Source of the DNA: Marinomonas foliarum
GTDB taxonomy: Bacteria > Pseudomonadota > Gammaproteobacteria > Pseudomonadales > Marinomonadaceae
Assembly (NCBI RefSeq): GCF_003337275.1
Contig: NZ_QPJQ01000006.1
Span: 62,001-126,000 of the forward strand
Length of the DNA stretch: 64,000 nucleotides
Direction of reading: 5' to 3'
Position numbers and translations under genes: made by a program
In this document: piece after piece, positions 49,497 through 54,439 of the stretch
Layout: every line of letters starts with the position of its first letter
Position numbering within the stretch: the stretch's first letter is position 1
The notes under the pieces: model-generated
The model's input: the letters and a program-made list of their open reading frames with translations, nothing else
The model's database searches: none
Told to the model about the DNA's origin: nothing

Positions 49497-49550
49497 AAAT
49501 TTTAACTCTGACCCCAATTATTTAAATTTTAACTCTGACCCCAATTATTG
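49497..49550. repeat. Two tandem copies of a 27-bp repeat
   Basis: The unit starting AAATTTTAACTCTGACCCCA occurs twice in direct repeat with a 27-base period (49497-49523 and 49524-49550, last base different). The core TTAACTCTGACCCCAATT resembles sequences I recall next to REP-associated transposase genes; no such transposase is seen here. The right copy encodes the last six codons and the stop of the Cap15-like gene, so the repeat forms the end of that gene. Confidence 0.85.
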
Positions 49551-50173
49551 ATTTCACGCTCTGCCTGCTCATATGTGCTATATAATTTCTCTACACGACC
49601 AACCAATTTCATTCCACCTTTGGTTGCCCTATCTGTCCAATAATGTCCTTCAAGTTCTTCGACTGGAGAACCATGAATTTCTAGTGCGAAAGAGCCATGA
49701 TGTATTTCGCTTCTTACACCTTGCAATTCAATTTTGGGTTCATTTCGATAAACACCAACTAGCTTGAACAGATCTTCATCCTCTTGCTGTTCTATACTGT
49801 GAGCCACCAACACAGATCTAGATTCCTTTGTCATCAACCTCAAACTAAGAAAAGTTAACGACTGCCTGATGACTGCATATCCATAGATTGGTGCGATTCC
49901 TTCACCAGTTTCAGGGTTTATCCAGCTACTTTTCAATTCAACTTTCCACGTTCCCCTCAAGTCTGGTCTTTTAACATACCAACCTTTAAATACTTTCCAT
50001 GACCACATGTATTTGTTGAAAAAGGTTACAAATAGAGTTATGACACCAACTACTGTACCAAATGGTTTTACAAAGTCCGCGCTGAGTACAGGCATGCCTT
50101 GAATCCATAGAGCAAGCAACCAAACCGCGATCGTGAGACCAATAAATGTTGAAATATGAAGTCTAGTTAGCAT
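49529..50173 (-). CDS. cap15: Cap15-like CBASS effector (two-helix membrane, beta-strand-rich)
   Basis: A 214-residue protein with two N-terminal membrane helices (about residues 7-25 and 34-52: ISTFIGLTIAVWLLALW and VVGVITLFVTFF) and a beta-rich domain opening at RPDLRGTWKVELKSSW. This is the layout of the SMODS-associated 2TM-beta family (Cap15), whose beta barrel binds the cyclic nucleotide made by a CD-NTase and whose helices then disrupt the inner membrane. Its ATG overlaps the CD-NTase stop (TAATG), so 50173 is used rather than 50197. The last residues NNWGQS come from the 27-bp repeat. Confidence 0.85.
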   Translation of the reverse strand: MLTRLHISTFIGLTIAVWLLALWIQGMPVLSADFVKPFGTVVGVITLFVTFFNKYMWSWKVFKGWYVKRPDLRGTWKVELKSSWINPETGEGIAPIYGYAVIRQSLTFLSLRLMTKESRSVLVAHSIEQQEDEDLFKLVGVYRNEPKIELQGVRSEIHHGSFALEIHGSPVEELEGHYWTDRATKGGMKLVGRVEKLYSTYEQAEREINNWGQS

Positions 50174-51072
50174 TATTCGAAACCTATGTAGTCCCACGCA
50201 TCACTTAAGAACTGATGAGCACTCTCTCGTGTCCATGGCTGTGAGCCCCTGAAAAGATATTTCAATTCATTTACTTCGCCCCATTCAGAACACTTTTCGT
50301 TAGATAAAGTATTGTTGAACAGTTCTGCGAGAACCGCCCTAACCATTGGCTTAAAAGACTGATATTGAAAACATGCGTTTGATGCGTTGAACACCAAACA
50401 CTCAATGAGAAAGCTCGGTGCATCTTTTGCTGATTGAACTCCATTTGACGCCATTTCATTCGATAACTTTTTTAAGACCCGAACAACTCTTTTGTACTTT
50501 CTAGAGGTGGCGTCGTTTTTTGAAACTCCATTTTCGTAATGCTGCTCCGGCCAATTTTTTACCCTAGGCGGGTCATAATCATCAGGAATCATTTCTACGC
50601 CGGAATGATAATAGGTTGTGGTTACATATCGGCGATGTTCAAAAAATGCTGCTACATCGGACTCTACGCGATAAGTATTCGCTTTGATATCAAAGGCTTT
50701 ACTACCACGCGTAACCGCTGCCCTTCCAAATCTAGCTACAAGCGCCTCTTCAAGTTCGCTTTTAAAAGTCGCGTATTCATAAGTAGCAGGGACAAAGCTT
50801 TTTGCGAGTTCCAATTTTACGTTGTCATCAGGGTATTCAGGAAAATATGTATCGAAGCAGAGGACACCCACATCTACATCACTGTCCTGCCTTACATTAA
50901 CTCTGTTTCTGTAAGAACCTTGTGTAAATACTTTGATATTCCTATTTTTTAACTTATCACTCGCCTGAATGGCCTGCCTTATCTGCCTCTCGGCATTTTC
51001 CGCCCGCTCTTGCTCGGTTTTACCTGGACCTTGCGACCAAGTTGTAAATACAGATTCCCAATCCCTACTCAT
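50173..51072 (-). CDS. CBASS CD-NTase (cyclic oligonucleotide synthase)
   Basis: A 299-residue nucleotidyltransferase of the cGAS/DncV-like family. From the ATG at 51072 the active site reads G52-S53 in QGSYRNRV, D65-x-D67 in DSDVDVGV, and a third Asp at about D139 (RVESDVAAFF), so the metal-binding triad is complete. The product should be a cyclic di- or trinucleotide made on phage infection, which activates the coupled Cap15-like effector. AGGAG lies seven bases before 51072; an alternative start at 51099 falls at the attC edge. The clade (CdnB or CdnE type) cannot be fixed by eye. Confidence 0.9.
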   Translation of the reverse strand: MSRDWESVFTTWSQGPGKTEQERAENAERQIRQAIQASDKLKNRNIKVFTQGSYRNRVNVRQDSDVDVGVLCFDTYFPEYPDDNVKLELAKSFVPATYEYATFKSELEEALVARFGRAAVTRGSKAFDIKANTYRVESDVAAFFEHRRYVTTTYYHSGVEMIPDDYDPPRVKNWPEQHYENGVSKNDATSRKYKRVVRVLKKLSNEMASNGVQSAKDAPSFLIECLVFNASNACFQYQSFKPMVRAVLAELFNNTLSNEKCSEWGEVNELKYLFRGSQPWTRESAHQFLSDAWDYIGFE

Positions 51073-51097
51073 GAAATTACTCCTAACCTGGGAAAGC

Positions 51098-51145
51098 AAC
51101 TAACGCCGCAATCACGCGCTTGTCGCGTGCATTGTTTTGTTAGCG
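51098..51145 (-). other. attC site after the HEPN cassette
   Basis: Read on the minus strand it starts CGCTAACAA, ends GGCGTTAGTT, and folds as CAAT-(G)-CACGCG / CGCGTG-ATTG with a bulged G and an ACAAG loop. Bulged bases of this kind set the recombination strand in attC sites. It lies between the HEPN stop and the CD-NTase start. It is short for an attC. Confidence 0.8.
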
Positions 51146-51157
51146 CTTACTGTTGCA

Positions 51158-52336
51158 TCAAAACGGAATTTCCACATCAGAAATCGTGGAAGGCATCCAT
51201 GGATACTGATTTGAACCAGAAATAAAGTCAGACTCATAATGCGCACGAGTACCCCAATATTCTACTTCTGTAGCCGCGACAATTGGGGTACTCATGTTCC
51301 CGAGCGAAACCGACCAATAACGACTTCCGTCACTTCTATTGTTCACGCTCGCGGAAGCGCTCTTAGTCTCAACTAAGCTTCCTCTCGCCAAATGGTCCTG
51401 CTGGAGAAGATCCGTTTCTTCGTCGACGGTTAATACTACATCGTTTAACGCCTCTACGATGAACTCTAGGTTATTTGTAAGCGTATCCTTGGAAAAGACG
51501 ATGCTAACTTCCTTCGTGGTTTTTATGTCGAAGTTTTCGTGTTGACCTCCCCACATTCCCCCCTCTGAAATGTAAATACAATTATCCCTTAAATGGGGAT
51601 ACTTCTGAAAAAGCTGGTCTGTTCTGAAGTTTCCGAGCTTGTAGGAGCAAAACGTTTCGCCATACTTAGTTTTTTGCAAGGTTGGAACTACGTATCCGAT
51701 ACACACTCGGACCCATTCTTCGTTCTCGCTGTGAAACAGCGACACCTTAATATTTTCGCTTCCTATTGGTTTTATCTGCTTGTACCATTCATACTCAGTA
51801 TTTGTTGGAACAACTGTTGTGATGGATGTGATTTGCACTAAACACGTTTCTATCTCAATCAATACATGCTTAGTGTTTTGCTTTATCAGATCTATATCAT
51901 CTTCCTTTATCGGCCTAAAGTGGGCCAGTGAATTTCTGACCATTCCTATTTCTTTTAGCTTGGTGGCCACAATAGCTTTAGACGCTTTAAAGTAAGATGC
52001 AAAATGTTTCCAGTATGCATCTGAAATTATGATATCGATAAGTTCTCCGCTGTTTAGATAAAGCATAGGCGACGAAAGCTCATAACCCAGATAAGCATGC
52101 TCTTTAGCTTTTGCAATTCTAGATTTGGTTTCGCTCTTTATTGTTCCGCCCGTCGATATGGCTGCCTCCGACCATTTCTCTTTAAATTCTTTTTTCAATA
52201 CTATATAGACAAATACTCTTAGTGCGTTTTCAAAACGAAATAGGACGTTCAACGCCTCGTAATAATAGAGGTGCAGCCAACGCTCTGGGATCTTGACGAG
52301 TCCGCCTTCATGCTTTTCGGGCTTTTTCCACTGCAT
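51158..52336 (-). CDS. HEPN-domain protein of unknown function
   Basis: A 392-residue cytoplasmic protein, no signal peptide or membrane helix. The N-terminal about 170 residues are helical and carry R134-x4-H139 (RNSLAH), the R-x4-6-H motif of HEPN ribonucleases. The C-terminal about 220 residues appear beta-rich and are not assigned. HEPN proteins are often toxins or anti-phage effectors; that role is inferred from the motif and the cassette setting. AGGGG lies seven bases before the ATG, which stands about 27 bases after the preceding attC. No antitoxin partner is seen. Confidence 0.7.
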   Translation of the reverse strand: MQWKKPEKHEGGLVKIPERWLHLYYYEALNVLFRFENALRVFVYIVLKKEFKEKWSEAAISTGGTIKSETKSRIAKAKEHAYLGYELSSPMLYLNSGELIDIIISDAYWKHFASYFKASKAIVATKLKEIGMVRNSLAHFRPIKEDDIDLIKQNTKHVLIEIETCLVQITSITTVVPTNTEYEWYKQIKPIGSENIKVSLFHSENEEWVRVCIGYVVPTLQKTKYGETFCSYKLGNFRTDQLFQKYPHLRDNCIYISEGGMWGGQHENFDIKTTKEVSIVFSKDTLTNNLEFIVEALNDVVLTVDEETDLLQQDHLARGSLVETKSASASVNNRSDGSRYWSVSLGNMSTPIVAATEVEYWGTRAHYESDFISGSNQYPWMPSTISDVEIPF

Positions 52337-52362
52337 TTAAATCCCCTTTTCGTTTTATTGAA

Positions 52363-52463
52363 CGCTAACGCCTCATTCAGAGGCAATAAAATAGCTGGTT
52401 AAAATTGGCGAGGCACGAGCAAAAACCAGCTGTTTTTTGTCCTGCTGAAATGACTTGTTATAT
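52363..52463 (-). other. attC site after the PIN cassette
   Basis: A 101-base site. On the minus strand it starts ATATAACAAGTC, ends GAGGCGTTAGCG, and contains the arm pair AGCTGGTT/AACCAGCT and TCATTTCAG/CTGAATGA with one extra T. It is longer than the other two, with a loop typical of VCR-like attC sites. Confidence 0.85.
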
Positions 52464-52492: not shown

Positions 52493-53599
52493 TTATTCAC
52501 CACTTAAATCTAAATATTTGACACTAATCGTTTCACTATTTTCTTCATTTAGTTCAAATGCAGAATCTGTAAAATCTAATTCTGAAACTTCTGCATTTGC
52601 CCTAATACCATCCATGTAATCAATATTTACATAAGCTGAAAACACTTCAGTGTGCTTTTTCACAATATCGTTATGCAAGACAAACATATAAACTTTATCT
52701 TCAGGATCCCATGGTGAGCGATCGTAATCAGCAATTGAATAGTGAGCTTTTAGGACTATTTCAAAGTCAATTTCATACTCAACATGTTCATCTGAAACCG
52801 AAATTATGTTTTTGTGATTTATACAAACAGACTCAATATCTATTTGGTAAATTTCATCATCGAACTCATTTGCTTCGTCTGAGTAAAACTCTGATGAGCT
52901 AATTATCTCTCTGGCGCTTTCAATTAAATTTTCTTCTAGCTGTTCAAAAATACTGTCTGCAAATTTTACAGGCTCTTTTAATTCCTCTTCTTTCCTAACA
53001 ACCAAATCTAATAGGTCATCAACTCTCTTTAGATGAATCAAGTTATCTAAAGTGTCAGCATATTTTTCCATATCTCCATCATCACTGATGACGTATAAAG
53101 TATGCCCACGCTCTCTACTTACTTTGCCTACAGCTTCGAGCACAAATGCGTCAGGAAATTCAGATTTTTTATTTGCTCCTCCAAATGGAGGTTCAGAATT
53201 AAAGTATTTGTCGAAAACAATTGAGGCATCTACATTTTTTATATCTACAATTTCAGCTGAACTCTTATCAAGAAACTCTTCAAATTTTTCTAAAGCAATT
53301 TTATAAACATCTTCGGCTTTTACTTTCTCGAAAATGCCGTGACAAGCTAGTTCGGGTGTATTCCTTAAGAACATAGCTTCTTTTTGTATTTTCTTTATAG
53401 CTCTTGCCGATTCTTCTGCTTTTGATAATAAATGAGCTTTTATTTCATTGATCGTAATTTGTGTAATAAGGAGGTGAAGTCTTTCAGATTCAAGAAAGTC
53501 ACAAAGCTTACCTAGAGCATGCTCATTGAATTGGTAGTTTTTACTCTCATATGCTGAAGTATCAACAAATACCAATCTACTTTCTAATTCAGTGCTCAT
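52493..53599 (-). CDS. PIN-domain protein (DUF4935-like)
   Basis: A 368-residue protein with an N-terminal PIN nuclease domain: D13 in FVDTSAY, E52 in TINEIKAH, an Asp in SEFPDAFVLEAV near residue 148 and an Asp in VISDDGDME near 167 form the expected acidic set. The C-terminal about 170 residues are acidic and not recognised. The gene is notably AT-rich. AAGGA precedes the ATG, about 15 bases after the attC of the GNAT cassette. PIN proteins cut RNA and act as toxins or defence nucleases; that is inferred. No antitoxin gene accompanies it. Confidence 0.75.
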   Translation of the reverse strand: MSTELESRLVFVDTSAYESKNYQFNEHALGKLCDFLESERLHLLITQITINEIKAHLLSKAEESARAIKKIQKEAMFLRNTPELACHGIFEKVKAEDVYKIALEKFEEFLDKSSAEIVDIKNVDASIVFDKYFNSEPPFGGANKKSEFPDAFVLEAVGKVSRERGHTLYVISDDGDMEKYADTLDNLIHLKRVDDLLDLVVRKEEELKEPVKFADSIFEQLEENLIESAREIISSSEFYSDEANEFDDEIYQIDIESVCINHKNIISVSDEHVEYEIDFEIVLKAHYSIADYDRSPWDPEDKVYMFVLHNDIVKKHTEVFSAYVNIDYMDGIRANAEVSELDFTDSAFELNEENSETISVKYLDLSGE

Positions 53600-53613
53600 G
53601 AGTTTCCTTAGTG

Positions 53614-53669
53614 ATATAACGCTTAAAGCTGCGGCGGTGAAACCGTCCGACAGACTTGCCTTGTTAGCC
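53614..53669 (-). other. attC site after the GNAT cassette
   Basis: A 56-base site. On the minus strand it starts GGCTAACAAGG and ends GCGTTATAT; the middle folds as CTG-(T)-CGG-(A)-CGGT / ACCG-CCG-CAG with two bulged bases and a TTC loop. The GNAT stop codon TAA is part of the first core site. Confidence 0.88.
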
Positions 53670-54116
53670 TTTTACATACTTTTTCATATAAACGCGGCTA
53701 TATCCACTTTCATGTATGCGATCAAAAATATCGTAACCTATACGTTGATAGAGGCTTATATTCTCATTCATCTTTTCGTGAGTATATAGTTCGACATAGT
53801 CAAACTTTAATTCTCTAGCAGTTTTTTCGGCTAATTGAAGGAGAGCTTTACCATATCCCTTGCCTTGAGCCGAAGTATGAATTGCTATATTTTCGAGCAA
53901 AAACTTCCCCTTTGAAATAACTAAAACTAAGACACCGACTACACCCAACTCAGAATCTTCTAAGACATAAGTTTTATGGCTCTCGATTGCTTTATTGTAA
54001 TCAGCAAGCATTGGGGCAGGCTTAATACCTATGCGATCTATATAGTGCATATAAGCTGATTTAACACTTTCTTCAATGCTTTTCTGGTCACCTTTGCATG
54101 CAATTCTTATTTTCAT
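53664..54116 (-). CDS. GNAT-family N-acetyltransferase (first cassette)
   Basis: A 150-residue acetyltransferase with the acetyl-CoA-binding motif A at HTSAQGKGYGKALLQLAEK (Q/R-x2-G-x-G/A) and the C-terminal MNENISLYQRIGY. The N-terminus MKIRIACKGDQKS is standard for this fold. It is the first gene of the cassette cluster, 20-odd bases after the half-site at 54137, and would be transcribed from a promoter at 54147-54174. Substrate unknown; small molecules, antibiotics or a tRNA-bound toxin target are all possible. Confidence 0.88.
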   Translation of the reverse strand: MKIRIACKGDQKSIEESVKSAYMHYIDRIGIKPAPMLADYNKAIESHKTYVLEDSELGVVGVLVLVISKGKFLLENIAIHTSAQGKGYGKALLQLAEKTARELKFDYVELYTHEKMNENISLYQRIGYDIFDRIHESGYSRVYMKKYVKG

Positions 54117-54136
54117 AAATCACTTCTAGTCTTTTA

Positions 54137-54174
54137 GGCTAACATTTTAATAGTGCGCATGCTCGTTTAGACAA
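54137..54174 (-). promoter_or_regulatory. Array-start half-site and putative cassette promoter
   Basis: GTTAGCC (minus strand) at 54137-54143 is a recombination core at the left edge of what would be an attI or lost attC. Just upstream on the minus strand, TTGTCT and TATTAA stand 16 bases apart and could be a promoter for the cassettes. Both are short matches. Confidence 0.45.
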
Positions 54175-54423
54175 TTTCAAAACTGTCCAAAAAACCTTAT
54201 AAACAATTGAATAATAAAAATTTTATAAAGCTATTCACAAAAGTGAAAACTGGAAAAACGAGCGTGCGCGTTATTCTTTTTATCCACAGCGCGTTATTTC
54301 TGTTGCGGATATTCTTATTCATTGATACTAAAAGACTTTCTAACCAGCCACCAGTAAAAACACGCACTTTTTTGATTATTTTTCAGACAAAACGAGCCAG
54401 AAATCCGAATAATGAAAAATAAA

Positions 54424-54439
54424 CTGTATATTCACGCAG
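54424..54439. promoter_or_regulatory. LexA-like box
   Basis: CTGTATATTCACGCAG fits the SOS operator pattern CTG-N10-CAG and is flanked by AAA and TTT. No SOS gene follows. Integron-integrase promoters often carry such a box, so it may be a relic; it could also be chance. Confidence 0.4.

Follow-up and report, generated by a model that had tools for sequence, protein, structure and literature searches.

What does a HEPN protein do when it stands as a lone gene in an integron array, beside a CBASS system, and carries a second half that belongs to no known family? This question is raised by one gene of Marinomonas foliarum, in a stretch of 64,000 nucleotides (contig NZ_QPJQ01000006.1, positions 62,001 to 126,000), which we call the window and whose numbering is used throughout. 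HEPN RNases are established in defence (PMC3710099, PMC9519451), and no paper on this protein family was found in the open-licence literature. An earlier note, made from the letters alone, had suggested a stand-alone defence ribonuclease whose second domain senses phage. Here we follow up that suggestion.

Results

The HEPN domain and its predicted catalytic motif

The gene and its parts are as follows.
51158..52336, minus strand: HEPN protein gene, an open frame of 392 aa with ATG at 52336 and stop at 51158; four further full-length homologues
51851..52243, minus strand: Swt1-like HEPN domain, residues 32-162 (Pfam PF18731, E 1.1e-7; PADLOC PDC-M34B, E 7.3e-16 over residues 30-154)
51920..51937, minus strand: predicted catalytic motif R134-N-S-L-A-H139, with R134, N135 and H139 invariant in homologues
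51161..51826, minus strand: C-terminal half, residues 171-392, of no known family; 171-314 is the most variable part and the tail 357-392, with a YPWM motif, is conserved

The match to HEPN_Swt1 (PF18731) scores 32.6 bits against a cut-off of 27.5, and the most diverged full-length homologue falls just under that cut-off at 24.7 bits. Among the PADLOC profiles, PDC-M34B fits the HEPN half best. The R-x4-H pattern occurs once in the 392 residues, which proves little on its own because composition alone would give about 0.36 copies; it counts because of the HEPN domain match and because of its conservation. R134, N135 and H139 are unchanged in all five full-length homologues, the window copy included, and in three more distant HEPN proteins, so that the protein carries the conserved R-x4-6-H motif of the HEPN superfamily. 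The earlier note had named this protein from R134-x4-H139 in its N-terminal domain and had offered a motif that varied among homologues as one result that would overturn the claim; the domain match and the invariant residues bear the claim out. AlphaFold models residues 18-169 as helical with modest pLDDT, and the HEPN toxin HepT is the top VIA-align row for this half, at a Z of 6.8 that lies within the chance range for helical models. Our assignment to HEPN rests on the Pfam match, on the invariance of the three residues and, weakly, on the HepT row. Matches to PHROG 24039, PHROG 35246, DUF1951 and, with low scores, Cas13a/Csx1 were set aside.

A fast-evolving C-terminal half

Residues 171-392 matched nothing in Pfam, NCBIfam, PADLOC, PHROGs or the PDB sequences, and no CARF, SAVED or CBS match was found there. 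The roughly 220 residues that had been called unassigned at the outset therefore stay so, and no housekeeping enzyme, a match that would have spoken against the proposal, appeared in these libraries. The same note had described the half as beta-rich, and on this point we differ. AlphaFold runs with two and three input sequences gave mean pLDDT values of 53 and 55, and the low-confidence model from three sequences places strands within 175-282 and 327-345 and a helix at 290-313, for which mixed alpha/beta seems a better description than plain beta-rich. Foldseek matches (best E about 0.03) were left unused, the model being untrustworthy for the C-terminal half, and VIA-align rows for residues 172-314 (Z of about 4-5, to assorted alpha/beta domains) were too weak for naming a fold.

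The two halves of the protein have diverged at different rates. Across the five full-length sequences, 42% of positions are invariant in residues 32-170 and 13% in 171-314, and conservation returns in the YPWM-containing tail (36% in 357-392). In each of the ten pairs the dN of residues 171-392 exceeds that of residues 1-170 by a factor of 1.6-2.9, with dN in the HEPN half at 0.08-0.52 and synonymous sites saturated or near saturation. Taken together, these values indicate that the whole gene is constrained and that the C-terminal half is either freer or pushed to change; the HEPN protein gene is under strong purifying selection. Faster C-terminal divergence fits what would be expected of a recognition domain, without proving one, and could also reflect relaxed constraint and not an arms race.

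Position of the HEPN gene within an integron array

On the minus strand the array reads attI, GNAT, PIN_12, HEPN, CBASS cyclase and CBASS 2TM/Cap15 effector, so that the HEPN gene is the third cassette.
54123..54432, minus strand: attI/promoter block of the integron, whose copies are homologous as far as the GTTA crossover
53664..54116, minus strand: first cassette, GNAT acetyltransferase (Pfam PF13508)
53612..53668, minus strand: attC-like site between the GNAT and PIN cassettes (sequence, stem, z -2.7)
52493..53599, minus strand: second cassette, PIN_12 domain protein of 368 aa (Pfam PF16289, E 9.3e-33)
52363..52463, minus strand: attC-like site between the PIN and HEPN cassettes (sequence, stem, z -2.6)
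52337..52362, minus strand: leader of about 26 nt from attC to ATG, in which AAAGGGGA is the likely ribosome-binding site, judged from sequence
51096..51147, minus strand: attC-like site of about 52 bp closing the HEPN cassette (stem with an extra-helical base, z only -1.0)
50173..51099, minus strand: CBASS cyclase (PADLOC cyclase PDLC00801, E 1.9e-132)
49529..50197, minus strand: CBASS 2TM/Cap15-type effector (PADLOC E 6.2e-95; Pfam Cap15_CD_rec E 8.2e-16)

Attachment sites of attC type thus lie on both sides of the HEPN gene, and the attI lies upstream of the array. In our attC scan a first pattern was too strict and a looser one gave scores no higher than in shuffles; the attC sites are therefore called from where they lie, from their core sequences and from the layout of their stems, and no attC was seen after the CBASS pair. 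With these sites and the adjoining cyclase and 2TM/Cap15 effector, the earlier reading of a separate cassette that adjoins a CBASS cassette stands. The promoter scan found no more promoter-like sites in the HEPN region than in shuffles, and since the leader is only about 26 nt long and holds a good ribosome-binding site, the HEPN gene looks promoterless and transcribed from upstream.

The integrase gene is absent at the window's array. In the relative G763 the corresponding stretch, at the same locus, shares 93% identity with the attI block and is followed by an intact integrase gene. Identity is 77% with the sequence that flanks the integron integrase gene of contig C4. This gene, the only integron integrase gene found in the genome, carries one in-frame TAA.

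Several neighbouring features deserve mention in their own right. The PIN_12 protein, encoded in the cassette directly upstream, has about 190 C-terminal residues of no family and could, from its sequence, act as another stand-alone nuclease. With the DefensePredictor family DS2_2 the CBASS cyclase scores 174 bits, under the cut-off of 350. Two consecutive copies of a sequence of about 25 nt (TTAAATTTTAACTCTGACCCCAATTATT) lie where the effector gene ends (49502-49545), and no attC follows. The array on contig C4 (L021 9900-15700) comprises a pentapeptide/ion-channel gene, genes resembling nucleotidyltransferases, one for an HNH protein similar to CBASS endonuclease effectors and one for a TPR protein whose N-terminus is weakly Cap4/HamA-like. 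In a relative, the same locus as in the window has a different HEPN protein as its first cassette (L033 2457-3194; HEPN_Cthe2314, E 7.4e-8), so the platform has carried HEPN genes more than once.

Distribution and genomic settings of the other copies

Full-length relatives were found in Aromatoleum toluclasticum (L009, 57%), an IMG/VR contig (L011, 59%), genome G1083 (L036, 58%) and, more distantly, genome G1227 (L041). The gene is rare, being present in one of 390 genomes of the order and missing in the 17 further members of the genus listed in that search. A sample of 398 genomes of the phylum gave full-length matches in the window's genome and G1083 only; the viral collection gave one close copy, and annotated plasmids and phages gave matches to the HEPN half only, or none. 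The HEPN gene is rare, patchy and borne by mobile elements.

Two of the five copies follow zot in genomes of filamentous phages (inoviruses). On the IMG/VR contig the gene lies after an Ace-like gene and zot and before an integrase fragment. The G1227 copy directly follows, without a change of strand, genes for replication, ssDNA binding, an Ace-like protein and Zot, and a DUF3653 phage gene comes farther along, a gene order that marks the setting as an inovirus prophage. Two further copies occupy unrelated chromosomal spots. The Aromatoleum copy sits in a low-G+C patch (0.50-0.51 against 0.58-0.70 in its surroundings) with a VapB-like ORF upstream, and the G1083 copy stands alone between a sugar operon and ORFs of no assigned family. 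Two of the five copies adjoin no recognised defence or phage gene. The ORF lists revealed no partner gene common to the five loci and no neighbour shared by the non-phage copies, in line with the earlier remark that no antitoxin partner is seen, and no Rfam RNA was detected near the four copies scanned.

Two features beside these copies are recorded here. Inoviruses frequently use pili as receptors, and the pilin-like gene with an N-terminal methylation motif that adjoins the HEPN gene in the G1227 inovirus (L042 6699-7184) may, for that reason, have a role in excluding other phages. Upstream of the G1083 gene a unit of about 275-285 bp, which contains palindromes, is present three to four times in tandem (L040 9170-10111).

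Discussion

We propose that the window protein is probably a HEPN RNase that acts as a single protein, is activated by infection and works in the manner of Tha, its fast-evolving C-terminal half being a control or sensor region. In the proposed mechanism, the HEPN half would be the catalytic unit, probably a dimer with R134 and H139 in its cleft, and would cut RNA. In the uninfected cell the RNase would be silenced by its own C-terminal half. Upon infection, a phage product or an infection signal would act on that half and release the RNase, which would then halt translation and phage growth in an abortive type of protection. The HEPN_Swt1 match above cut-off, the invariant motif, the strong constraint and the faster C-terminal half argue for this proposal at the level of sequence, as do the five contexts with no common partner, the integron array with CBASS, the two inovirus genomes and the low-G+C patch of Aromatoleum. 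Its rarity (1/390), the low-confidence model of the C-terminal half and the two of five copies that lie away from defence or phage genes count against it. The stand-alone defence ribonuclease of the earlier note thus fits the motif, the lack of a partner, the mobile carriage and the faster C-terminal half. The other part of that suggestion, a second domain that senses phage, stays conjectural, as no fold, ligand or trigger was found for it.

A functional precedent is Tha, a lone HEPN RNase that is switched on by phage tail proteins and whose motif, RNSIMH, is almost that of the window protein (PMC11087260). Tha-1 and Tha-2, from Staphylococcus aureus prophages, resemble the window protein as lone HEPN proteins with an R-N-S-x-x-H motif and phage carriage, a likeness drawn from that paper that covers the motif and one-gene carriage only. 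The Tha RNase is released by infection (PMC11087260), and we propose the same here. However, the HEPN domain is C-terminal in the 301 aa of Tha, where minor tail proteins are the trigger, whereas it forms the N-terminal half of the 392 aa of the window protein. PDC-M34, the phage-defence candidate of PADLOC whose B protein gave the best profile for the HEPN half, is a pair of an A gene and a short B gene; the window locus lacks an A gene and has an extra half of 220 aa, and in the ORF lists no A-type gene of matching size lies beside any of the five copies. Pairs of this kind, with a short Swt1-HEPN B protein, were seen in two other genomes of the phylum (L037 1453-2653 and L039 704-1890). Swt1-like proteins of about 335-365 aa (L012, L014, L038 and Acidisarcina WP_114211201.1) also have HEPN near the N-terminus and the same motif. 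Their HEPN halves align with the window family at 97.7% probability but their C-terminal halves do not, hhalign finding no relation between the latter and those of the window-type proteins. DS-11, a one-protein CBS-HEPN system (PMC13092281), combines a HEPN defence domain with a regulatory second domain in one chain, as the protein proposed here would; the window protein nevertheless scores 16.3 bits with the NCBIfam model of DS-11 (NF053863) against a cut-off of 260 and has no CBS match. Anantharaman et al. 2013 grouped AbiF/AbiD (Abi2) with Swt1-like HEPN proteins (PMC3710099); the window protein differs from AbiF/AbiD in having no Abi2 match in Pfam and no associated Rfam RNA found.

Several other explanations have to be weighed against the Tha-like RNase. 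The protein might belong to a toxin-antitoxin pair as its toxin, the antitoxin being a small protein or RNA that escaped notice. Many HEPN proteins are such toxins, HepT gave the best structural row, PDC-M34B, close in profile to the HEPN half, is accompanied by a partner gene at the two loci examined, and the VapB-like ORF upstream of the Aromatoleum copy could be read in the same way. A type II pair of the HepT-MntA kind has a conserved adjoining partner, however, and the five loci show neither this nor a PDC-M34A-type gene. The Rfam search returned no RNA of the AbiF-linked kind, the window leader leaves just about 26 nt after the attC, and the L011 copy shows nothing that corresponds to the antisense ORF at 51593-51841. 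Having no partner gene or known RNA in common makes a toxin-antitoxin pair unlikely. The position of two of the five copies after zot would also suit an inovirus life-cycle factor, or an inovirus superinfection-exclusion gene, that has spread elsewhere and has no general defence function; yet three of the five copies lie outside recognisable inoviruses, one of them in a cassette array with CBASS, and only one close copy came from the viral collection, which leaves this origin distinctly unlikely.

Adjacency in the array raises the further idea that the protein is an effector of the neighbouring CBASS, its C-terminal half binding the cyclic nucleotide of the cyclase, and HEPN effectors with nucleotide-binding domains do exist (Csm6/Csx1, DS-11). 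The CBASS already has its 2TM effector, though, and an attC of its own separates the HEPN gene from it; CARF, SAVED and CBS domains went unmatched over residues 171-392, and a cyclase of the window's family is absent from the two other genomes tested. After this last search we put the CBASS effector very low. Some HEPN families act in RNA processing (PMC3710099) and defence is itself still a predicted function here, so a catalytically active protein that serves in stress or in RNA processing and has nothing to do with phage can be conceived; we give it hardly any weight against a distribution that is rare, patchy and mobile-element-borne, with the gene missing from the 17 other genomes of the genus listed in the order search.

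Going further than the Tha-like RNase itself, we suggest tentatively, at somewhat less than an even chance, that these proteins form a new family of HEPN RNases, each a one-protein system that senses phage through a domain of no assigned fold, spread as integron cassettes and as filamentous-phage cargo. What is new here is the protein family, its C-terminal half with no known match, and the fact that an integron array and inoviruses alike carry it. Storage of phage-defence genes in integrons has reportedly been described already by Kieffer et al. and Darracq et al., both cited in PMC13092281. If the proposal is true, a compact, antitoxin-free RNase switch would be added to the known phage-defence proteins, one defence gene would be common to an integron array and filamentous prophages, and the fast-changing C-terminal half together with phage escape mutants would offer a ready route to the trigger.

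Dispersed attI-like blocks

The attI/promoter block of the window is also a dispersed repeat. The M. foliarum genome holds ten copies (54123-54432 in the window and further ones in L049-L056), a relative holds up to 18, and the block was found in 37 of the 39 genomes of the genus. A limited search of the literature returned nothing on integrase-less attI platforms, and no integrase lay within the stretches covered around nine extra copies. Homology among the copies breaks off at a common point, where every copy read but one has GTTA, and a different gene follows each; from sequence, this looks like many integrase-less attI platforms per genome.
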